Positions 3,040 through 26,413 of a stretch of DNA of 32,863 nt are shown here, piece by piece. The position numbers were made by a program, and so were the translations under genes. Source of the stretch: Candidatus Aenigmatarchaeota archaeon (lineage in GTDB: Archaea > Aenigmatarchaeota > Aenigmatarchaeia > QMZP01 > QMZT01); NCBI GenBank assembly GCA_016932735.1, contig JAFGCI010000009.1, positions 1-32,863 of the forward strand, in the 5' to 3' direction. The notes beneath the pieces were generated by a model that worked only from the letters and a program-made list of their open reading frames with translations, made no database searches and was not told the origin of the DNA. Position 1 is the first letter of the stretch. The number at the start of each line of letters is the position of its first letter.

Positions 3040-5412
3040 ATGAGGAATCATTTAATCGTGGCCTTAGTTCTGGTCTTTTCTCTAGCCTTAGCTCAGATGG
3101 CCATGGCCTCCATAACTATAACAGACATCATTGATGCTCCGGACCCTGTTCCGGTTGACGATACAGCACTTATTGATTGCAATGTAACCGAAAATGAAAC
3201 CTTTATTGATACGGTCATTGTAGAGATAGACCCGCCAAATTATTCGCCCGTGAATTTTACAATGAACAATATCTCTGCAACTGCCTACAGGTATGCCTAC
3301 AGCCCCAATGAAAGCGGGGCTTACGTGTACAGGATTTATGCTAACAACACGAATGGCGATTGGTATTCAACTACGTTATACTCTTTTGTTGCAGAAGACC
3401 CGCTTCCACCTGCAAACGAATCCGGAAGAACAACGGAAGTTATAATATCGATAGATATCGCTGCATCATGCGACGGCGGAATAATTTTTTACTATGCACC
3501 TGATTTTGCAATAAGGGGCCAGCACGTCGTCTTCGTTATGATGCCCCAGAACGTGGGAAACCTCCCGCAGAACCAGACAACTACGCTGACCCTCAGGGAC
3601 CCAAACGGAACCGCACTGGGCAACTATATACCTCTAATAGGACAGTTGCAGACAGCTCCGGGGATTCTGACATTTGATACATATCTTGCCCAGCCGGGCG
3701 ATTATGCATTTCAGTTCGGTATATGGGACTCTTCGAATTTCAGTGTGGGAGATTACAGCGCAACAGCTACTCTTGTATGGGATTCCACCTTTGAGAGCGG
3801 GAACACCACGGAATCATGGTCAAGCCTTAATTCAAGCTCTGATTGCGGGAACATAACATACGATGAACTGACAGGTCTGAATAATACAGTATGTTATACA
3901 ACAATTTATGACAGATGCAAATTCCTTGAAGTCAGCAGCCGGAATAATATTCTGACATCAGAAAATACGAGCGTTACTGTTGCAGGCATGACTGAAAATT
4001 CGACAGGCAAATACGGGAATATGACATTATCAGGAACTCCGTACAATTTCTATATCTTCAATACTACAGACTGCTATGATACATACTGTTATGCCTGCAT
4101 GAGTGCGGATTCGACAATTAATGAATCGGGCGAATGTGTAACGGAAGGCAACCTGATTTATTCTCCAATAGGATTATACAGGGTCAACGATGTTGACAGC
4201 GAAGGCAGATGGCTTAACATAACAGCAGAAGTTGAGAGCTGTTCTTTCTTTGGGCACATATATAACTGCAGTCTGGAAATAGAGAACGGAACGATTACAG
4301 ACGGAATCGTAACTGACGGAATAATAAACGATACGATAGAATGCAACGTTACCCTGACATGCAACGGTGACGTTTCAATAACAAAGATTTTCCCGATAAA
4401 CGAGACATTTGGAAACGGGTCCGGAACAACACCGGAACCGGAGCCCATACCAGAACCGACCCCGACACCCACTCCAACACCAACCCCCACTCCAACACCG
4501 ACACCCACCCCGGAGCCGGAACCGGCACCAGGTTCCAATGCAAGCATAGGACAGACACAGATTTCAATTAACATAGAACCCTTGGAAAGGGAAATTCTAG
4601 GCGAGCAGGGCGAATGGATACCGGCTGTCTTCAACATAACCAATATAGGCGGTGTCAATGTAACCGACATCGAGCTTATACCGATGGTGATGGAGGAATG
4701 GGAGGTCAAGACAGCATCGATAGATTTCATTGATATCGGTGAGACTCTGAACAGGACACTGTTCGTGAAACCGCCATTTGACGCTCCGCTTGCAAGATAT
4801 GTAATACCTGTAAAGGCTGTCAGAGGAAACGTTACTCTCGATATGGACTATTACTGGGTCTCGGTTCTTGAGGCAGGGAACAGGACACGCCTTGAGATAC
4901 TGGAGGTTCCTGGATCCATAGGAATAGTTATGGAGACAGTTATAGAAGCTCCCGTTCTTGTCAAAAATATGGGAAAGATTGCGCTCCATAATATCAAGGG
5001 GACACTCGAAAATGCGGACCAGTGCATTGAGAGTTATAACTTCTCAACGCTAAGCGTGCTCGGAGTCAATGAGACATATTCAATGACACTCTCCCTTAAG
5101 GCGAAGACAAACATGAAAAAATGCGATGCAACGCTTATCGTGTCTGCAGACGAGGGCACATACGCATTCTCTGATATAGAAATTATTGTCATGACAGGAC
5201 CCGGATTCCTTCCCGAATTGCCACTACTTGTTTATGTGATAATAATTCTGGCGATTCTCATTGCGGTATTCACAAAGATGAAGAAGAACAGGGAATATAT
5301 GGAAATGGAGCCGGGAATCATAGGAACCATCGCGACATTGTTTCTGATAGTTTTATTCATCCTGGTATTGTACATAATTTTCGGCTATCTCGAATTTGTT
5401 CCCTTATTCTAA
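3040..5412 (+). CDS. Large surface protein with Thr-Pro linker and two C-terminal membrane helices
   Basis: About 790 residues. The signal peptide is at the N-terminus (hydrophobic core ending AQMAMA). An N-terminal Ig-like region is followed by a Cys-containing region with many sequons, then a Thr-Pro/Glu-Pro low-complexity linker (bases about 4431-4530), then two CARDB/NEW3-like Ig domains. Two membrane helices close the protein at about 5220-5270 and 5330-5395. The linker suggests a rigid, possibly O-glycosylated spacer that holds the distal domains off the membrane. Two starts are possible: ATG at 3040, with GGTGA five bases upstream, or GTG at 3031, with GGAG six bases upstream; the ATG is preferred. 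The gene lies 2-11 bp after the previous one, so it is the same operon. Its 3' end overlaps the end of elp3 by 9 bp in antiparallel orientation. Confidence 0.8.
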   Translation: MRNHLIVALVLVFSLALAQMAMASITITDIIDAPDPVPVDDTALIDCNVTENETFIDTVIVEIDPPNYSPVNFTMNNISATAYRYAYSPNESGAYVYRIYANNTNGDWYSTTLYSFVAEDPLPPANESGRTTEVIISIDIAASCDGGIIFYYAPDFAIRGQHVVFVMMPQNVGNLPQNQTTTLTLRDPNGTALGNYIPLIGQLQTAPGILTFDTYLAQPGDYAFQFGIWDSSNFSVGDYSATATLVWDSTFESGNTTESWSSLNSSSDCGNITYDELTGLNNTVCYTTIYDRCKFLEVSSRNNILTSENTSVTVAGMTENSTGKYGNMTLSGTPYNFYIFNTTDCYDTYCYACMSADSTINESGECVTEGNLIYSPIGLYRVNDVDSEGRWLNITAEVESCSFFGHIYNCSLEIENGTITDGIVTDGIINDTIECNVTLTCNGDVSITKIFPINETFGNGSGTTPEPEPIPEPTPTPTPTPTPTPTPTPTPEPEPAPGSNASIGQTQISINIEPLEREILGEQGEWIPAVFNITNIGGVNVTDIELIPMVMEEWEVKTASIDFIDIGETLNRTLFVKPPFDAPLARYVIPVKAVRGNVTLDMDYYWVSVLEAGNRTRLEILEVPGSIGIVMETVIEAPVLVKNMGKIALHNIKGTLENADQCIESYNFSTLSVLGVNETYSMTLSLKAKTNMKKCDATLIVSADEGTYAFSDIEIIVMTGPGFLPELPLLVYVIIILAILIAVFTKMKKNREYMEMEPGIIGTIATLFLIVLFILVLYIIFGYLEFVPLF

Positions 5413-12430: not shown

Positions 12431-13354
12431 ATGGATACCTGGAAAAAAATATTAGATTTGTTTTTATTACAAGTTCAAACTGGAGACTTGAAAACTTCAA
12501 CATTTCCAAAAGAGTATAGCGATTTGAAGATGAGAGTTTCTTTTGGTATGGGTATGCCTGCCAGAGTTCCATGGATAGCTTTCACTGCCCCCGAAATGCA
12601 AGTAAGTAAAGGGTTTTACCCCGTTTATTTATATTATAAAGAACTTAATGTTCTAGTTTTAGCATATGGAATAAGTGAAACCTCGGAATTTGATAAGACG
12701 TGGCCTGCTGAAATTATGAATTCAACTTTAACCATTAAAGCCTTTTTTGATAAAGACGTCCCACGATATGGAGATTCTTTTGTCTTCAAAGCATATAACA
12801 TCAAAGTTCAGAAAGATAAAATTGAATATCAATCACAAGAAGGACAAAATATTTCCGAAAAGGACCTTGAAGCTGATTTAAAAACCATATTAAATTATTA
12901 CAAAAAAACAGTTTCAATTGAAATTAGAAAAGAAGATACGGTGTTAAGTCAAGGCCTTTTCTACATGGAAAAGCAGTTAGAAGATTTTATAATCTATAAT
13001 TGGAAGAACACGGAGCTAGGAAAAAGATTTGACTTAATTATTGAAGATGGTGAACTAGTAAGTCAGCAGTATAGAACAGGAATTGGACCCATTGATATTT
13101 TAGCTAAAGATAAAAAAACAGGAGATTATGTTGTTATCGAATTAAAAAAGAACCAAACTAGTGATGATACTGTTGGACAGATTTCTAGATATATGGGTTG
13201 GATTAAGAAAAATAAAAATAATCCAAATGTGAAGGGTATAATAATCGCTGCTGAATTTGATAAAAAATTAGAATACGCGCTAGGGGTAGTGAATAATGTT
13301 GAAGTTTTCTTATACCAAGTTGATTTTAAGTTAAAGGAATTTAAAGGGGTATAA
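12431..13354 (+). CDS. McrB-N (DUF3578)-like domain fused to a NucS-type PD-(D/E)XK nuclease
   Basis: 307 residues. The N-terminal half resembles the DNA-binding domain of McrB (DUF3578): FPKEYSDLKMRVSFGMGMPARVPWIAF, then YPVYLYYKELNVLVLAYG. The C-terminal half, after a helix EKQLEDFIIYNW, is a PD-(D/E)XK nuclease of the NucS/DUF91 kind: Asp222 in GPIDILAKD, Glu237 and Lys239 in VVIELKK, and Gln250 and Tyr254 in QISRY. No GTPase or other ATPase domain is present. The layout suggests a one-protein, modification- or structure-dependent DNA endonuclease acting as defence. The gene is visibly richer in A and T than the housekeeping genes beside it, and lies in an accessory island, so transfer is likely. 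The nuclease call is firm, the target a guess. Confidence 0.78.
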   Translation: MDTWKKILDLFLLQVQTGDLKTSTFPKEYSDLKMRVSFGMGMPARVPWIAFTAPEMQVSKGFYPVYLYYKELNVLVLAYGISETSEFDKTWPAEIMNSTLTIKAFFDKDVPRYGDSFVFKAYNIKVQKDKIEYQSQEGQNISEKDLEADLKTILNYYKKTVSIEIRKEDTVLSQGLFYMEKQLEDFIIYNWKNTELGKRFDLIIEDGELVSQQYRTGIGPIDILAKDKKTGDYVVIELKKNQTSDDTVGQISRYMGWIKKNKNNPNVKGIIIAAEFDKKLEYALGVVNNVEVFLYQVDFKLKEFKGV

Positions 13355-17951: not shown

Positions 17952-19106
17952 ATGGTCCGGCAAGCTTTTTCGAAGATTGTTTTTTTATCCCTTATATTTG
18001 CTGTAGCCCTGTCAGCGTCTTCCCAGAAAGCTGATGCCATTGCTATAGGCGTTGCCCCCGGAATCCTGAACGTCGGGGACGTTTATCCCGGCACCTCGAA
18101 GCTTGTTGAGTTCTTTCTTATCACAACAGCGACCGAGGATATGCTGGTCAGCATGTCTTCAATAGACCCCCATTTCGATTTTTACACGACAGTTCACGAC
18201 GGTCATTATAAATTCTTTCCTGAAGAGTCCTCGAATGAATATATAAACGGCTGGATAAGCTTCCCTGAAAATCCTGTCAGGGTTTCTCCGGGCGAGACGA
18301 TTACACACACTTTCCCTCAGGGGGAAACCATCAGGGCGAATAAAAGAGTCAGGGCGATACTCACCGTCCCCAAGGACGCCGATCCGGGATATCATGTAGG
18401 TTCAATAAATTTTGCTCCGCAACTGGCCTCCGGAACGGGGGGTCTGGCAACAATGGCCGTTTCCAGGTTTGTTTATGTTTTCTATGTAAAGCCGCTTGAG
18501 GACCAGCCCGAACCCCTGCGGTCGGGAAAGATAACTGATATAGAAGCCCGCAGGGTTGAAGGCGACAGGGTAAGGATAGATGTTTTATTCCAGAACACCG
18601 GAACAGATACTGTGTTCGTAAAAGTCAAAACTATGGATATTTTTGATAACTTCGGAACGCTGATGAAGACAGTAGAATCCGGTTATGAGCGGGTGAAGCC
18701 CAGGGAGACAAAAGTCCTCTCGGCTTTCTGGAACGATAAGGATGCAAGGGGGTTGCACAGGGTAAAGGCGGAAGTCGATTTCCTTACGGGCTCCCTGACG
18801 GCAGACACCGAAGTGACCATACCTGAGGAAATAACATCAGGCCTTGGCTTATTCCCATCGCCGACCGGAATGACCACTGGCTTTCCGTGGTGGATAATAA
18901 TAGTCTTTGTCGTGATGATAGCACTAATTGCATATTTCAAATCAGACTGGGTATGGATCATGGTTCTTCTGGGGCTTATAATAGCTGTTCTGGTTATTAT
19001 AGGCCTTCTGATAAGCCCCCCCAACATAGATGTTTACAGCATACCGTGGTGGCTCATTATAATAATAATTGCAGTAATATCTCTTGTTATATACTGGAAA
19101 ATTTAA
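17952..19106 (+). CDS. Surface protein with beta-sandwich ectodomain and three C-terminal membrane helices
   Basis: 384 residues. A signal peptide (residues 1-29, ending SQKADA) is followed by an ectodomain of about 270 residues. Its first part (APGILNVGDVYPGTSKLVEFFLI) looks like an Ig-like domain of the DUF916/WxL-interacting kind; a second part (RVRIDVLFQNTGTDTVFVKVK) resembles a CARDB-type domain. The C-terminus has three closely packed hydrophobic helices, about 316-333, 338-358 and 365-383, the last two rich in Ile. Few cysteines. It heads an operon of three surface proteins (17952-20515). A structural or adhesive role is inferred. Confidence 0.75.
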   Translation: MVRQAFSKIVFLSLIFAVALSASSQKADAIAIGVAPGILNVGDVYPGTSKLVEFFLITTATEDMLVSMSSIDPHFDFYTTVHDGHYKFFPEESSNEYINGWISFPENPVRVSPGETITHTFPQGETIRANKRVRAILTVPKDADPGYHVGSINFAPQLASGTGGLATMAVSRFVYVFYVKPLEDQPEPLRSGKITDIEARRVEGDRVRIDVLFQNTGTDTVFVKVKTMDIFDNFGTLMKTVESGYERVKPRETKVLSAFWNDKDARGLHRVKAEVDFLTGSLTADTEVTIPEEITSGLGLFPSPTGMTTGFPWWIIIVFVVMIALIAYFKSDWVWIMVLLGLIIAVLVIIGLLISPPNIDVYSIPWWLIIIIIAVISLVIYWKI

Positions 19107-19139
19107 AATATACCAGATCAATTAGATTGTGGTGGTGTT

Positions 19140-19664
19140 ATGAAGTTTCATAAATTTTTGTTTTTAATAGCGTTTGTTGCAGGATTGCTTATCTTTACCC
19201 TGCCCTATCTTGGGATAGAATCCCCGGAAACATCTTACACGACATTCATTAAAACAGAATACAGTGAAGATCCGCTATTCAGTTATGCGGTCAGCATCTT
19301 TCCGATAAAGGTAGAGGTACTGAATGCCGAGCAACTGATAACAAACGATTCAATAAAAATAGGTGTTGCGGGCCAGATGAACGAAATGCATTTCGGCAGA
19401 ATACCTGTCGGGGCTTCAACAACTAAAATCCTGGAAATAGAGAACAATGAAGGGACTTCAGCAAAAGCCATAGTGGAAGTTGTCGGGCCGATGCGTTCCT
19501 TTACAGCCGGACTGGATATAGAAAAACTGCTGCCTCCGGGAGAAAAGAGCGAAATAAAGATAAAATGCGAACCGGCATCATCGGGCAACTATACGGGCGA
19601 AGTGATAATGACGGTAATTTCCCCGAAGAGCAGTTTTTCTGAACAGCTGCTGAAGCTTATGTGA
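19140..19664 (+). CDS. Small membrane-anchored Ig-like protein
   Basis: 174 residues. An uncleaved-looking N-terminal hydrophobic helix (FLFLIAFVAGLLIFTLPYLG) places the rest outside. The ectodomain has FGRIPVGASTTKILEIENNEGTS and LPPGEKSEIKIKCEP, the alternating pattern of an ASH/HYDIN-type or COG1470-type Ig domain. It is preceded by GGTGGTG as ribosome site, 33 bp after the previous stop, and its own TGA overlaps the GTG codon that could start the next gene. Confidence 0.75.
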   Translation: MKFHKFLFLIAFVAGLLIFTLPYLGIESPETSYTTFIKTEYSEDPLFSYAVSIFPIKVEVLNAEQLITNDSIKIGVAGQMNEMHFGRIPVGASTTKILEIENNEGTSAKAIVEVVGPMRSFTAGLDIEKLLPPGEKSEIKIKCEPASSGNYTGEVIMTVISPKSSFSEQLLKLM

Positions 19665-19669
19665 TAATC

Positions 19670-20515
19670 ATGAAATTTGCATATATAACATTATTGACAA
19701 TTTCATTGCTATTTTTAGCCAATGCAGCAACAGCAGACGTGCCGGTTGTTGTCAAGATAACACCAAAGCTGGAGAGGTCATTGGACTATTATAATTTTTC
19801 CGAAGAGATAGTCAACAGCTATCAGAGATTCGTTGTAAACCTCTATAATATAGGCTCCATAGGCTGCCTTACAAGAGTAAGGTTCGATATATATAATTCC
19901 ACAAACGAAGAAGTTTTTGATACTGTATGGTCTGAAGAGTTTCCGATGGAAGCCGGCTCCTATTATACATTTGAGACATACTGGTATCCATACAACATCA
20001 GCGGTAATTTCTATTCAAAGATGAGAATATACCAGTGCAATGACATTTTTGAAGGCCCCGTTTCTGGCTTCAGTGTTGATAATACAGTTGCTAATGAAAC
20101 AAAAAAAATTGATTTTCTTGAGGAGGAAATTCTTGAAGTGAAGAAAGCAGCTAATACTGAGAGTTATATAGAGCTTGAAATAACGGCCATAGAAGATTTG
20201 GAAAACTTAATATTCCACACCGAAGACTACCCCTTTGGCTGGATTTTCGGGGATAAAAAAATTGATAAAATAAATAAAGGCGAAATTAAGTATCTGAGAA
20301 TAAATTACGACCCCGAAATATGGAGAGAAACCGATATTTCGATAAATATTTTTGACGAGGAAAATAATTATTTCTCCAGTAAAAAAATATTTCTGGAAAA
20401 AAATAATAATCCTGATACGAAGGATATCATAATATCGGTTTTGGGAATAATAATATTTTTGCTGGTTTTCCTGAAAATAAAAGAAATTAAAGGCAGAAGA
20501 AAAAAGAAAAAATAA
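19670..20515 (+). CDS. Secreted Ig-like protein with C-terminal membrane helix
   Basis: About 281 residues. The signal peptide MKFAYITLLTISLLFLANA supports the ATG at 19670, rather than a GTG at 19661 that overlaps the previous stop. The ectodomain has a Cys pair and aromatic-rich beta strands (FETYWYPYNISGNFYSKM) and an AIEDLENLIFH region similar to other small Ig modules in the window. A C-terminal helix (IIISVLGIIIFLLVFLKI) ends in a very basic tail KGRRKKKK that stops transfer. Last gene of the operon; a T6A6 palindrome follows. Confidence 0.75.
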   Translation: MKFAYITLLTISLLFLANAATADVPVVVKITPKLERSLDYYNFSEEIVNSYQRFVVNLYNIGSIGCLTRVRFDIYNSTNEEVFDTVWSEEFPMEAGSYYTFETYWYPYNISGNFYSKMRIYQCNDIFEGPVSGFSVDNTVANETKKIDFLEEEILEVKKAANTESYIELEITAIEDLENLIFHTEDYPFGWIFGDKKIDKINKGEIKYLRINYDPEIWRETDISINIFDEENNYFSSKKIFLEKNNNPDTKDIIISVLGIIIFLLVFLKIKEIKGRRKKKK

Positions 20516-20524
20516 TTATTTCTC

Positions 20525-20536
20525 TTTTTTAAAAAA
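20525..20536 (+). terminator. T6A6 palindrome after the surface-protein operon
   Basis: TTTTTTAAAAAA, about 10 bp after the stop, in an AT-rich spacer. A T tract here would end the transcript. The 20516-20684 spacer otherwise holds the promoter of the MinD gene. Confidence 0.4.
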
Positions 20537-20631
20537 CAGAAAAAATCAGATTTATTTATTTTATTAATTTCCCGGGAAATCAATGAAAATCAATTAAAAA
20601 TGAACTAATTTCGGTCCAAAATTAGCAAAGC

Positions 20632-20638
20632 TTTTAAA
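20632..20638 (+). promoter_or_regulatory. TATA element of the MinD/AT-hook operon
   Basis: TTTTAAA, about 50 bp before the TTG start. The TSS would fall near 20660, leaving a 25-nt leader that contains GGTG (20676-20679), so this operon, unlike many in the window, has a leader with a ribosome site. This spacing also favours the TTG start. Confidence 0.5.
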
Positions 20639-20684
20639 TCATAAAGTGAAGTAAAATACAACAATCAGGGGGTAAGGTGTTAGA

Positions 20685-21842
20685 TTGTCTAGAGTAGTTG
20701 GTATTATTTCTGGTAAAGGCGGAGTCGGCAAGACGGTAGTAACGGCCAACATCGGAATGGCCCTTCATGAAATAGGTCAGGATGTTACACTTGTTGATGC
20801 TGATCTGACTTCATCAAATCTCGGCCTTCATCTGGGCCTGTATTCATTTCACCCCTGCAATATGCAGAAAATACTCCGGGGAGAGATAAGGCCGGAAAAG
20901 GCGATATACATACACCCCTCGGGACTGAAGCTGATGCCTTCATCGCTTGCGTATGAAAGCATAGACGTCGATGCATCAAAGCTCAGAGCAATTTTTAACA
21001 GGATGAATGGTCTTGTTTTAGTCGATTCGCCCCCCGGAATAGCAAGGGAAGGCCTTGCGGTCCTCCAGTGCTGCGATGATTTGATAGTCGTCACGAATCC
21101 GGAATATCCTGCAATAACAGACGCGCTAAGGGTTATAGAAGTGGCAAGGGAGAATAATAAGAATATTCTCGGAATCGTTGTCAATAAGGTATCCAGAGAC
21201 AAATTTCATGTTCATGTATCCGAAATAGAGGCAGCTACGGAACTTCCTGTGATTGCGATAATACCGGAAGATAAGAGCGTCCGCAGGTCAATTTTTTCAA
21301 AAATGCCCGTGATACATCACAAGCCTTATTCAGTTCCGGCGATAGAATTCAGAAGACTGGCGGCAAAGCTGGTGGGAGCACCTTACATACCCCCGAAGTT
21401 TGCAGCTTTTAAAAATCTGATATCAAGAACAAAAATCGTAACGCATCATAACAGAAGCATTGCAAGTGATATGACAACCAGTGAGAATTATAATTTTTCA
21501 GATATGAATCAGACGATAGCACAGCAGACAGCGGCTTATAATGCTCCGGGCGTTCAAATGGCAGCCGCCCCCGGTATTTATGATAATACGGTGCAAGAAA
21601 GCCAGCAGTTTAATGGTTATCAGGAAGTGCCCTGCAATTCAACGCAATTCATGAAACCCGCCTTTAACAAATTCACAGAGGCCGAAGACAGTCTCGGCAT
21701 ATCCCCTAAGACTGAAGAAAGAAGAGGTCCGGGCAGGCCAAAAGGCTCTTTGAAGAAGAAAGGCCCCGGAAGGCCGAAGGGCTCAACAAAAAAGAAAGGT
21801 CCTGGCAGGCCAAAGCTGGCAAAAAGAAAAAAGAAGAAGTGA
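20685..21842 (+). CDS. MinD/ParA-type ATPase with C-terminal triple AT-hook-like tail
   Basis: 385 residues, TTG start with GGTG six bases upstream. The first 235 residues are a MinD-type P-loop ATPase: deviant Walker A GKGGVGKT (residues 10-17), the switch region VDADLTSSNLGLHLG, and Walker B-like LVLVDSPPG. A Gln/Ala-rich flexible linker of about 100 residues follows. The last 38 residues (348-385) are three tandem copies of GPGRPKGSxKKK, the third less complete, i.e. AT-hook-type minor-groove binding motifs with a very basic end. The MinD membrane-binding helix is not evident at the end. ParA/MinD ATPases position DNA or protein complexes; the tail suggests that this one binds nucleoid DNA. 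It is 7 bp before a large surface protein in the same operon. The role is inferred. Confidence 0.85.
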   Translation: MSRVVGIISGKGGVGKTVVTANIGMALHEIGQDVTLVDADLTSSNLGLHLGLYSFHPCNMQKILRGEIRPEKAIYIHPSGLKLMPSSLAYESIDVDASKLRAIFNRMNGLVLVDSPPGIAREGLAVLQCCDDLIVVTNPEYPAITDALRVIEVARENNKNILGIVVNKVSRDKFHVHVSEIEAATELPVIAIIPEDKSVRRSIFSKMPVIHHKPYSVPAIEFRRLAAKLVGAPYIPPKFAAFKNLISRTKIVTHHNRSIASDMTTSENYNFSDMNQTIAQQTAAYNAPGVQMAAAPGIYDNTVQESQQFNGYQEVPCNSTQFMKPAFNKFTEAEDSLGISPKTEERRGPGRPKGSLKKKGPGRPKGSTKKKGPGRPKLAKRKKKK

Positions 21843-21849
21843 TAAGAAG

Positions 21850-24387
21850 ATGAGAGAGCTGAAAAAGACATCATTTGCAGCTTTTATTATATCAATGGTC
21901 ATTTTGTCAGCTTCAGCTTCAGCATTTCCTGAAATAGCAGATGTTGTTATTAATCCGGCTATACTGTGGCTGGATAGTTCGAATTCAGTTGAAGTCGGCT
22001 TCAAATGCTATGAGTGCGCAAGGGCCGAAGTCCATATCGAAGGCCCGGGAACGAATCTGGACGATGTAGCAACTAAAAAGGCAGGTCTGAATAATGATTT
22101 TGGTTATTCTTATGTTGCTGAAAAACCCGGAACATATAACGTAGAATTAAAGGGCTTCAGCATCAATGACACTAATACCACTAATACAACAACAGTTAAT
22201 TTTGCGGCACAGAAACTGAAAGCAGTCATAATATCACCGAGTGCGAGCCACCCGATACTGAAGTATAAAGATGAGCTGTTTGATTCTGTTTATCTGGATT
22301 TCTCTCTTCTGGCGGACGAGGAAATGGTAATTACAGAAAGCCAGAAGAATAAAGTCGATTTCAGGATGTTTCTTGATAACGTTGAAATAGATCTCCAGAC
22401 AGGTGACGACAGATACGATACCCAGATAGGTCATTGGAAGTTTACACCAAAGGTTCCAAGTACGCTTGCGCCGAATCTATATGACCTCACCATACACGCT
22501 AAGTATGACGGACAGACTGTTGTAGCGTCTCATGCAGATTCTGTCATTGTGAAGCCATCATTTGAGGCTGAAATCATAGAGCCTACAACCAATAAGTTCC
22601 TGTCCCTGAAGGGAACGGACAAGATGACAGTGAAGGTCAGACTTAGCTACAAAGGTCAGCCCATCCAGCTTGGGGATCCAAGTTTCACATTCTATCTGGG
22701 GGATGAGAAGATAACGACACTGGTGTCGCAGGACGATACTGACAAATATCTATGGTATTTGCAGATGGTTGTTCCGGGGCAAAGGGCAGGGACAAAGGAT
22801 ATAACCATGTATGTAAGCTATAATGGGGAAACTCCTTATCCCCCATCACTTACGGAGAAGGATGCGGTACACTTTGTGATACCTTTTGCCGGCAGAATTC
22901 TGGATTCCAGCGGGACTGTCCAGCATATCGATATAAAGCTGGAGGACGTCAACCAGTCAAAATACTACACCATTCAAAACGGTAACGATGGCAGATACAA
23001 CGCGGACATAATACCAGGGACATATGATATGAACGTGCAGCTTCCTGGGCTTACAGCTGTGTTCAATGATGTTGAGATTACAGAAGAAAACCTTAAAGAG
23101 ACTGCATCCACCGACGGGCCTATAAATTTTGATGCACCGAAGGCGATTACAACAATAGACGGGGGCATTGATGTTATAAAGGCGATAGTCCTTGAGTTTG
23201 ATTTGCCTTTCAGTAATTCTGAATTGACTATGTCTTATGATGACTCCAGAATCAGGAACGAAGAGAATCTTGAAGTATACCAGTGCTTTAACTGGAATTT
23301 CGGAAAGGGTGCATGTGCCGACGAATGGGAAAAGGTCAGTTATGTAAATACCAATACAAGGGGCAATGTAATCATGTTTAATACCACACAGCCTTCAGCA
23401 TTTATTATAGGCGAAAGGAAAGAACTTGAAGTAACGCTTGATAGTGACATCGGGTATGGAACCTACATAACGGGCGAGAATGTTATAATAAAGGGACAGG
23501 TTACAGATTCATCTGGAAATGCAATAGAAGCCGCGGATGTGGAAATCTCTATTGTAGGTATGGAGGAGAATTACAACAATGTTGTCAAGACAATAATCTC
23601 AGGAAATTTCAAGTCGCAGATAGAGATGCCGACAGATAAGGGTATATACAATCTTAGCGTTAAAGCCAGTAGATATCCTTTCAAGGAAGTTATTAAGTAC
23701 TTTACCATTGAGACCGAAATAAAGGAGGAAATCAGCTTCATAAATGTCCCAGACGGCCAGAAACTGTATGTAGGGGAGCCTCTTGATATAAAATTCTCGC
23801 TTCTCAATTCAGGACAAACCGTCCTTAAAAACATAAAATTGTATGTGGCCGGTCTGGCCACTGAATGGTACCAGCTTCTTCCTGTAAGCATAAATGAGCT
23901 GGAACCCGGAGCCATAAAGGACGTTGAATTGAAACTTCTGGTTTCAAAATCTTACTGCGATAAATACGAATGTAAAAATTATTATCCCGTAACGCTTCAG
24001 GCAAAGTCTGACCAGATAGATGAAGAAGCCTTAATGACATTGACACTGAGAACCGAAAAGGAAGTGACCGTTGAGACCATCGCTGAGAATAAAGAAAATG
24101 TCCAGAGCCCTTTCAGCCTTGATGGTCTGATAACCGGTGGCATAGCAAGCGGCTCATCCGCAGAATCAATCGCCGTTTACGGCGGGATTATTATAATATC
24201 TGTTCTTGTTGTCCTGTCATTAAGGAAAAGATACACGACATCAGGCGGCATTGTGCCAAGAGACCCAAAAACAGTCCAGCCTAACGTTCTTCATTTCATG
24301 AAATCAGGAATGAATAAAAATACACAACAACAGAATCAGAGCCAGTTCGGGGGTCTTCTCGGCCAGAACAGAAAGAAAAACGAATAA
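21850..24387 (+). CDS. Large multi-domain Ig-like surface protein with cytoplasmic tail
   Basis: 845 residues. A signal peptide (ends ASASA) is followed by a Cys-pair Ig module (KCYECARAEVHIEGPG), several beta-sandwich domains, a CarboxypepD_reg/SpaA-like unit (AGRILDSSGTVQHIDIKL... IIPGTYDMNVQLPG), a macroglobulin-like unit (GENVIIKGQVTDSSGNAIEAADVEI), and a NEW3/CARDB-like domain (GEPLDIKFSLLNSGQT). One membrane helix at about 776-794 (GGIIIISVLVVLSL) precedes a 50-residue polar, Gln/Asn-rich cytoplasmic tail. The tail could contact the MinD-like partner encoded just upstream, but that is a guess. It converges with the coiled-coil gene, one base between stops. Confidence 0.78.
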   Translation: MRELKKTSFAAFIISMVILSASASAFPEIADVVINPAILWLDSSNSVEVGFKCYECARAEVHIEGPGTNLDDVATKKAGLNNDFGYSYVAEKPGTYNVELKGFSINDTNTTNTTTVNFAAQKLKAVIISPSASHPILKYKDELFDSVYLDFSLLADEEMVITESQKNKVDFRMFLDNVEIDLQTGDDRYDTQIGHWKFTPKVPSTLAPNLYDLTIHAKYDGQTVVASHADSVIVKPSFEAEIIEPTTNKFLSLKGTDKMTVKVRLSYKGQPIQLGDPSFTFYLGDEKITTLVSQDDTDKYLWYLQMVVPGQRAGTKDITMYVSYNGETPYPPSLTEKDAVHFVIPFAGRILDSSGTVQHIDIKLEDVNQSKYYTIQNGNDGRYNADIIPGTYDMNVQLPGLTAVFNDVEITEENLKETASTDGPINFDAPKAITTIDGGIDVIKAIVLEFDLPFSNSELTMSYDDSRIRNEENLEVYQCFNWNFGKGACADEWEKVSYVNTNTRGNVIMFNTTQPSAFIIGERKELEVTLDSDIGYGTYITGENVIIKGQVTDSSGNAIEAADVEISIVGMEENYNNVVKTIISGNFKSQIEMPTDKGIYNLSVKASRYPFKEVIKYFTIETEIKEEISFINVPDGQKLYVGEPLDIKFSLLNSGQTVLKNIKLYVAGLATEWYQLLPVSINELEPGAIKDVELKLLVSKSYCDKYECKNYYPVTLQAKSDQIDEEALMTLTLRTEKEVTVETIAENKENVQSPFSLDGLITGGIASGSSAESIAVYGGIIIISVLVVLSLRKRYTTSGGIVPRDPKTVQPNVLHFMKSGMNKNTQQQNQSQFGGLLGQNRKKNE

Positions 24388-24388
24388 T

Positions 24389-26413
24389 CTATTCTATAAT
24401 TAACGGAGAGTTTATTTTCAGCATGTTCAGTCTTCTCTCGAAATCGGCTATCTTTTCGTGAAGTGGTTCCAGATCGAAGTGTTCTATATTTTCTTCAATC
24501 CACTTCTGTTTTCCTTTTAACATCTCAATTTCCCTGATAAGGCTGCCGGGATCTATGCCCTTTATGGTTTCATGGCCTCTCTCTATATTTTTCATTTTCT
24601 CCTCTATTGCGGAAAGCTCAATATTGACTCTTTTGGCATATTCCGTATTGTTTTTCACAGAATCGCGGATTGTTTTATTCATCGTTTCCAATTCTCTGTA
24701 TACCTCATTTTCAAAATCCTTTACAGCATTCTCAGTTATTCTCGAGTCTACGTCCTTTTTGATGTTACTTATTTCTTTCATAATCCTGCCGGAATTATCG
24801 TCGGATAAAGTTCCCGGCGGCAACGGTCCTTCGTGGAAGTTCTTCAGAGTCTTTGCAAGCTCATTCATGACATTATCAATCCTTTTCTCATTTTCAACAA
24901 GCCTGTTTCTTATATCGCTCATGTTCCTTGATAATTCTGCTTCATTCTTCAGGAGATTTTTTCTGAGATAATCCAAATCCTCTGAATATTTGCTCATACC
25001 TGTCTGAAGAAGTTTTGCAGGGACTCCGGTAGGTGGTCCCGGAAGGCTGTTTCTCACTGAGGGAATAATCTTTTTCAGCTCTTCGTTCTCTTTTACGAGC
25101 TTTTTAACATCTTCCCTGATTTTATCAATATCGTCCTTTCTTCTGAGGAACTGCTCTATCTGGACAGATTTCTTGTTTATCTTTTCAATTTCCTTTTCAA
25201 GGGCGATACCCCTTTTCATTGCATCTTCAACATCCTTTGCATCGGGAATTTTTGGGGGGACGAGATTCTGTTCGAATTCAAGGAATTCCTGCTTTGTTAT
25301 CGTCTGCTCAAGTCCCTTCTTCAAAGAAATCATTTCATTCTTCAGGGAAGAGACATCATCTGATGTGCCTTTTTTCGGCGCGGATTCAATCTTTGTTAAT
25401 CTGTTTTGTAAGTCCTTTAACGATTTTTTCAGTTCCAGAGTCGATGTATCCGGAACCATTTTTTTAGTTGGCGGTGATTTCATCTTGCTGTTAATAAGAG
25501 AAAGTTTCTTGTTCATGTCTGCAAAGACAGTGTTTATTTTAGAGTCGTTGATATCTATCTTTGAGAAGAGAGAGTCTACCTCTTTTTCAAGTTCGCGTAA
25601 ACCCGTTGTATTATATCCCTTTGATAGCTCACCAAGTCGCTCTTCAATGATTTCGATTTTTTTATTTATATGAGAAATGCTCCCCTTTTCGCCTAAACGG
25701 TTTTCGATGCCTTCCATCCTTGAGAATAATGCCGCAACTTTCATTCTTATATCGTCAGAGCTTTTTGCTTCCTGAGCACCGGTTTTTATTTTTCTCATCT
25801 CCCCTTCAAGAGAACTGAGAGAGGATTTAATTTTTTCAAATTCGCCAAGAATGGGAGGCAGAGGCTTTTGGCCGCCTCCGGATTTTTTAAAGAATATAAT
25901 GTCATTCGAAAGTGATTCTATCTGTTTCTTCAGACTTTCTATCGGTTCTTTATAGTCCTGAGCACCTTCAGGTATTCTGACTGGTTTTATGCTTCTTACT
26001 CTTGTTTCAAGGTCTTCAATCCTTTTAATTAGCTCAGGATCCGTACCGCTTTTGGCGTCTGATACCATTCTTTTAAGTTCTTCAATTTTTTCTCCATAAT
26101 CAGAAGGAATTTCAGAAGCCACACCGACCGAAGAAGCCTTTTCTATATTTTTCCTGAGAACATCAATTTCGGATATTGTTTTTTTCCATTGCTCAAAAAC
26201 ATCAGCACTTTCTGCGAGCTTTTCAAGTCTTCTTACATTCTCTTCAATGTCATCGGGTACATATGTGGTCGTTCCGATTTTAATTTTTTCTATTTCATTC
26301 TTCAGATTAATTATGTCAAGCTCAGTGAGTTGTTCAGTATCCTGCAGTCCATCTACTTTATCTTCAATAGTTTTCAATTTCTCTAAAAGAAGAGCTTCAT
26401 CAACCATACCCAC
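24389..26413 (-). CDS. Long coiled-coil protein beside the pilin operon
   Basis: 674 residues, almost wholly heptad-patterned and rich in Glu, Lys, Leu and Ile, with short Pro/Gly breaks (around GGGQKPLPPILG and LPGPPTGVPAK). No signal peptide or membrane helix, so it is probably cytoplasmic. The start is a GTG at 26413; an ATG two codons later (26407) is the alternative, with GGTGG too close to serve it. It sits 54 bp downstream of the last pilin-like gene on the same strand and has its own TATA-like AATATATAAG upstream. I recognise no family; similar proteins act as scaffolds or SMC-like rods, but no ATPase motif is present. Confidence 0.7.
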   Translation of the reverse strand: MGMVDEALLLEKLKTIEDKVDGLQDTEQLTELDIINLKNEIEKIKIGTTTYVPDDIEENVRRLEKLAESADVFEQWKKTISEIDVLRKNIEKASSVGVASEIPSDYGEKIEELKRMVSDAKSGTDPELIKRIEDLETRVRSIKPVRIPEGAQDYKEPIESLKKQIESLSNDIIFFKKSGGGQKPLPPILGEFEKIKSSLSSLEGEMRKIKTGAQEAKSSDDIRMKVAALFSRMEGIENRLGEKGSISHINKKIEIIEERLGELSKGYNTTGLRELEKEVDSLFSKIDINDSKINTVFADMNKKLSLINSKMKSPPTKKMVPDTSTLELKKSLKDLQNRLTKIESAPKKGTSDDVSSLKNEMISLKKGLEQTITKQEFLEFEQNLVPPKIPDAKDVEDAMKRGIALEKEIEKINKKSVQIEQFLRRKDDIDKIREDVKKLVKENEELKKIIPSVRNSLPGPPTGVPAKLLQTGMSKYSEDLDYLRKNLLKNEAELSRNMSDIRNRLVENEKRIDNVMNELAKTLKNFHEGPLPPGTLSDDNSGRIMKEISNIKKDVDSRITENAVKDFENEVYRELETMNKTIRDSVKNNTEYAKRVNIELSAIEEKMKNIERGHETIKGIDPGSLIREIEMLKGKQKWIEENIEHFDLEPLHEKIADFERRLNMLKINSPLIIE

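Follow-up and report, generated by a model that had tools for sequence, protein, structure and literature searches.

The MinD-type ATPase gene at 20685-21842 of the stretch of DNA analyzed here (hereafter the window: 32,863 nucleotides, the whole of contig C4 of a 1.18-Mb genome) belongs to a conserved gene cluster, A-B-C-MinD-D (window 17952-24387), which also occurs in archaea outside the phylum and whose other members encode envelope proteins. In the window, the ATPase additionally carries a long linker and a basic tail with three GPGRPK repeats. The conserved envelope cluster is the wider and better supported finding of the two; the tail is, as far as can be judged by comparing sequences, an elaboration private to a single species or lineage.

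The MinD gene and its conserved envelope cluster

The cluster comprises the following features:

17952..19106, + strand: gene A, 384-aa secreted/membrane protein with two Ig-like domains and C-terminal helices
19140..19664, + strand: gene B, 174 aa, ASH/HYDIN-type Ig domain (Pfam ASH, E=1.5e-6)
19661..20515, + strand: gene C, 284 aa, one C-terminal transmembrane (TM) segment and a short basic end, KEIKGRRKKKK
20632..20639, + strand: TATA-like TTTTAAAT, about 50 nt upstream of MinD (read by eye, unscored)
20685-21842, + strand: MinD ORF, 385 aa, with a TTG start at 20685 and GGTG 5 nt upstream
21850..24387, + strand: gene D, 845-aa surface protein with a chain of Ig/macroglobulin-like domains including CarboxypepD_reg
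24169..24384, + strand: TM helix of D (aa 774-791) and its 54-aa cytoplasmic tail, which is polar and in which the candidate docking-helix position is degenerate

The identification of the ORF as a MinD-type ATPase in the initial annotation proved correct: the archaeal MinD family TIGR01969 matches it with 208.9 bits (cut-off 201.75), the closest PDB structure is 1hyq (E=4.9e-45), and alignment with homologues supports the TTG start. Residues K11, K16, D38, D40 and D114 are invariant in an alignment of 23 sequences; the signature lysine (K11), the P-loop lysine (K16) and the Walker B aspartate (D114) that mark such an ATPase are thus all present, and by sequence the ATPase is intact. The same genome encodes two further MinDs (contigs C8 and C9), both of ordinary length, and the types of its MinD, GatD and GatE mark it as archaeal. 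We also considered a ParA partition system but did not adopt it, as no ParB-type partner is adjacent and the neighbors of MinD, A, B, C and D, are envelope proteins.

To survey the locus, D homologues were collected with a D profile, which matched many genomes of the class as well as archaea beyond the phylum, giving 47 loci from 44 genomes. In 38 of the 47 loci, a MinD is the immediate same-strand neighbor of D, usually upstream of it; in the window, D starts 7 nt after MinD ends. Genes A-B-C (17952-20515 in the window) are present in 33 of the 47, nine of these outside the phylum, and in most cases their order ahead of MinD-D is the same (homologues of the cluster include L095, L096, L140, L141, L144, L158, L160, L166 and others). 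MinD is a usual member, though not an obligatory one, since in three loci (L136, L137 and L139) no MinD adjoins A-B-C-D. A maximum-likelihood tree groups 42 other MinDs, both further copies of the window genome among them, in a clade with 100/98 support, and the MinDs located upstream of D are not part of it. A T-rich stretch follows gene C and, together with the TATA-like TTTTAAAT, indicates that MinD-D is probably a transcription unit of its own.

The survey bears out the operon with a membrane-anchored surface protein that had initially been described here, and the conservation of that operon, which had been proposed as a check, held, with three more envelope genes (A, B and C) conserved as well. 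Within the open-access literature (subscription papers lay outside that scope), we found no description of the A-B-C-MinD-D cluster, which is apparently undescribed so far.

An AlphaFold2 model of the gene A protein (pLDDT 86.7) had the Enterococcus faecium WxLIP structures 9i25 and 9i1y as its top Foldseek matches in the PDB (TM 0.47–0.50 by target), and Pfam WxLIP_HBD was detected, marginally (E=0.0013), in one of 32 gene A members; the modeled fold may accordingly be described as WxLIP-like. Membership in a WxL cluster was not adopted, as the Pfam scans run on B, C and D members gave no WxL match. Gene C matches no Pfam or NCBIfam family. In the model of D (pLDDT 81.9), Ig/macroglobulin-like domains are strung together ahead of a TM helix and a disordered cytoplasmic tail; the Foldseek matches of D are macroglobulin- and titin-like chains, which, because the TM scores are low (0.11–0.25), we read as indicating a multi-Ig architecture and nothing more specific. 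Two other window proteins may be mentioned here. Convergent with D lies a 674-aa protein (24389-26413, − strand), probably a coiled coil, for which there was no family match above the curated cut-off, and a 793-aa ORF without a Pfam match, probably encoding another surface protein, contains a Thr-Pro-rich repeat of ACACCC/ACTCCA units at 4455-4511.

A pattern of regularly spaced hydrophobic residues followed by lysine (phi-xx-phi-xx-phi-K, for example VNIIKEIKDEI) is found in 18 of 49 cytoplasmic D tails, compared with 1.9 in shuffled sequences, and we infer that it is a candidate MinD docking helix. Past this pattern, many D tails outside the window species end in polybasic sequences such as KKTRKRRKRKKR and KKKRKYKKKKKIKQKRKKKK, and in four loci (L121, L148, L154 and L155) the C-terminus of D has a C2H2-type finger motif; that of L148 was found by eye, and Pfam reports a finger for L121 alone (E=4.8e-4, just under the cut-off). 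In L154 and L155, which represent one distant family, the finger motif is present and the D tail is strongly acidic. In the window species, it is MinD that bears the basic module, and the D tail is polar. This distribution suggests that the cytoplasmic side of the cluster repeatedly gains tails of a putative nucleic-acid-binding type; basic ends behind a TM helix may, however, simply mirror topology, and gene C bears them too.

The C-terminal extension of the window MinD

Within the MinD ORF we distinguish the following segments:

20685..21389, + strand: ATPase domain, aa 1-235, with the deviant Walker A motif GKGGVGKT
21390..21434, + strand: retained C-terminal helix segment PPKFAAFKNLISRTK, aa 236-250, placed by alignment, tail comparison and hydrophobic moment
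21441..21719, + strand: Q/N/S/T-rich linker, aa 253-345, ~93 residues, absent from homologues
21720..21839, + strand: basic tail, aa 346-385, with three GPGRPK repeats; 20 of 40 residues are K or R and none is D or E
21723-21758, + strand: repeat unit 1, RGPGRPKGSLKK
21759-21794, + strand: repeat unit 2, KGPGRPKGSTKK
21795-21830, + strand: repeat unit 3, KGPGRPKLAKRK, in which only the GPGRPK core is kept

The extent of the ORF and the tandem repeats had been described correctly at the outset. The absence of a visible membrane-binding helix, in contrast, was not confirmed: PPKFAAFKNLISRTK occupies the alignment columns in which almost all homologues carry their C-terminal helix. Nearly all of these homologues end a few residues past a short basic hydrophobic segment (e.g., PPKFAFIKRFLGGFRK), whereas the window MinD continues for about 135 further residues. 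The segment has only a modest hydrophobic moment, 0.40 across 12 residues and, for a 14-residue stretch, not above that of shuffled sequences, and is weaker than homologous ones such as KRFLGRFKK; the putative membrane helix may thus be weakened, yet by alignment it is not replaced. The linker that follows looks disordered.

The repeat copies share 22–25 of 36 nt with one another (61–69% pairwise identity), which argues against fresh DNA slippage as the source of the array. Shuffling the 40-aa tail 200,000 times never produced two or more GPGRP, and three or more GRP arose in 0.03% of the shuffles. Of the codon changes counted across the [RK]GPGRPK core, six are synonymous and one is a conservative replacement, a pattern that we regard as suggestive only, the core having been picked post hoc.

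All three units read [RK]GPGRPK, that is, a GRP core with basic flanks as in AT-hooks. The core by which AT-hooks are defined, however, is RGR, as in PRGRP (PMC11354804), and in each of the three units the residue preceding GRP is proline. Thus, the GRP core and basic flanks of the AT-hook reading put forward in the initial annotation stand, while the canonical RGRP does not, and "AT-hook-like" is the apt term. No Pfam AT-hook profile matched the tail up to E=10, a search in which profiles this short are insensitive. Nucleic-acid binding is best treated as a predicted function of the tail.

The tail proved to be confined to this gene. A DNA pattern coding for GPGRPKG, run against 156 genomes of the phylum, occurred in the window MinD gene only; in 322 other archaea it gave five matches in three genomes, most of them in GC-rich frames that are improbable, and no match lay within a MinD. 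Linker and tail, used together as a protein query against 40 further genomes from the order, found no match, and the full protein, searched along with patterns that included linker peptides, yielded no tailed relative in a species-genome collection. The tail had no match in the PDB or among plasmids, although its low complexity limits both searches. Of 85 distinct MinDs, only that of the window extends more than about 35 aa past the usual end; the condition named at the outset as speaking against the AT-hook reading, that homologues lack the tail, thus holds, all 84 others being without it. This removes conservation as evidence, but need not mean that the tail is inert.

The nearest relative of D (37% identity) is encoded in genome G013 on a contig that ends just upstream of D, and a close MinD was not found. 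In genome G001, of the same genus, the best D match is partial and lies inside an unrelated long frame; the one G001 MinD placed in the tree belongs to another type. As a separate observation, a 735-aa frame with a MinD domain at locus L045 (188-2392) ends in a typical MinD C-terminal helix and is a possible MinD fusion.

Possible roles of the tail

The reading we prefer, and hold tentatively as a reasonable possibility, is that an ATP-switched MinD docks on and positions the envelope complex, and that the window species has gained a nucleic-acid tether. ATP-bound MinD would dimerize and sit on the membrane, dock on the short cytoplasmic tail of D, and place the A-D envelope complex or gather it into clusters. 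With three repeats per subunit and six per dimer, the tail could make weak, multivalent, sequence-tolerant contacts with nucleic acid, so that membrane-bound MinD would also touch the nucleoid, as a tether or positional cue, and ATP hydrolysis could release this link and make it reversible. The ATPase, the position of the helix, the gene linkage and the tail can be read from the sequence, and docking, DNA binding and positioning are the steps we infer from them.

Several observations count in favor: the adjacency of MinD and D, the conservation of A-B-C and the tree position of the D-linked MinDs; the docking pattern in D and the polybasic or C2H2-type D tails elsewhere; the TIGR01969 match with intact ATPase residues and the synonymous bias in the GPGRPK core; and Lys-rich C-termini on RNA-polymerase-type subunits of the same genome. 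There is a precedent in Escherichia coli MinD, which binds DNA and, in an ATP-dependent manner, tethers it to the membrane or to liposomes (PMC3792344). Counting against it are the restriction of the tail to one species, the lack of an RGR core and of a Pfam AT-hook match, the absence of MinD beside L136, L137 and L139, the acidic D tails of L154 and L155, the possibility that topology explains the basic ends, and the degenerate docking-helix position in the window D. A broader version, in which the envelope system as such contacts the chromosome and the nucleic-acid module swaps partners, residing on D tails elsewhere and on the MinD repeats here, we consider doubtful.

The weak helix could also be taken to mean that the tail is an electrostatic anchor on the acidic inner membrane face, reinforcing an amphipathic segment poorer than that of homologues (KRFLGRFKK), and not a DNA hook; polybasic stretches beside membrane helices are common in the cluster, gene C included. 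Such an anchor would have no need of regularly spaced GPGRPK with its Gly and Pro, nor of ~93 residues between helix and tail, and we think it rather unlikely. Binding to RNA, ribosomes or polyphosphate through GRP/RGG-like repeats, for instance to couple surface-protein synthesis to the membrane, would fit reports of RNA binding by AT-hooks (reviewed in PMC11354804) and the Lys-rich tails of the RNA-polymerase-type subunits; regularly spaced GPGRPK is nearer to DNA hooks than to RGG repeats, and the proposal seems quite improbable. The extension could instead be a nearly neutral stretch of low complexity that was added recently, all function lying in the MinD-envelope cluster; this would agree with the presence of the tail in one species and with homologues that do without it. 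The repeat is, however, neither fresh nor decaying, as its copies are 61–69% identical in DNA and yet keep the GPGRPK peptide, and we judge this explanation unlikely. An assembly or annotation artefact, frameshift or chimera, which a single genome assembly might raise, is very improbable: one open frame runs across linker and tail and ends 7 nt before D, and the locus is evidently continuous, since D follows MinD in homologues as well.

The Lys-rich C-terminal tails referred to above are those of Rpb1-domain-5 and Rpb7-like (SHS2+S1) proteins at L187 (G000:C11) and L180 (G000:C2). Other observations in this genome are a basic frame of KKxV repeats at L189 (G000:C11) and, at window 12431-13351, a protein with an MrcB-type N-terminal domain and a NucS/YhcG-like PDDEXK nuclease domain, possibly a restriction-type defense protein.

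Relation to known systems

Archaeal MinDs of known structure (TIGR01969; 1hyq, 1ion and 1g3q) share with the window protein the ATPase fold, the deviant Walker A motif and the position of the C-terminal helix; the window MinD differs from them in its additional ~135 aa with GPGRPK repeats and in its fixed linkage to an envelope cluster. The MinD4 of Haloferax volcanii is an archaeal MinD tied to surface structures, with an extension that is not known to share the motif of the GPGRPK tail. H. volcanii MinD2 likewise regulates or positions surface structures, as is proposed here, and a partner gene, HVO_0596, is conserved downstream of minD2 (PMC11588486). Compared with MinD2 and MinD4, however, the partner in the window is a large TM surface protein, and the cluster holds no recognized archaellum gene.

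The output proposed here, an ATP-dependent link between DNA and membrane, resembles that of E. coli MinD, in which the DNA-binding mutant R219D lies in the MinD domain itself (PMC3792344), whereas here a separate, added tail would act. HMGA-type AT-hooks (TPKRPRGRPKK; PMC11354804) have in common with the tail the GRP core, the basic flanks and three short, flexibly linked repeats, but the tail has Pro in place of Arg before GRP, is fused to a MinD and is archaeal. Gram-positive WxL/WxLIP (DUF916-DUF3324) clusters (PMC10599100) are similar in combining several surface proteins, and the model of gene A may resemble their WxLIP in fold. Unlike those clusters, that of the window is archaeal, includes a MinD ATPase and has no WxL domain that we could find.

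MinD/ParA ATPases set the positions of things in prokaryotic cells, and to our knowledge the cargo of most archaeal MinDs is not known. A MinD linked by gene order to four envelope proteins, also outside the phylum, supplies a concrete candidate cargo. Furthermore, a natural MinD with a DNA-binding-like tail offers a ready case of a membrane-type ATPase that would have gained attachment to the nucleoid, and together with the envelope cluster, the tailed MinD may connect the envelope to the chromosome.
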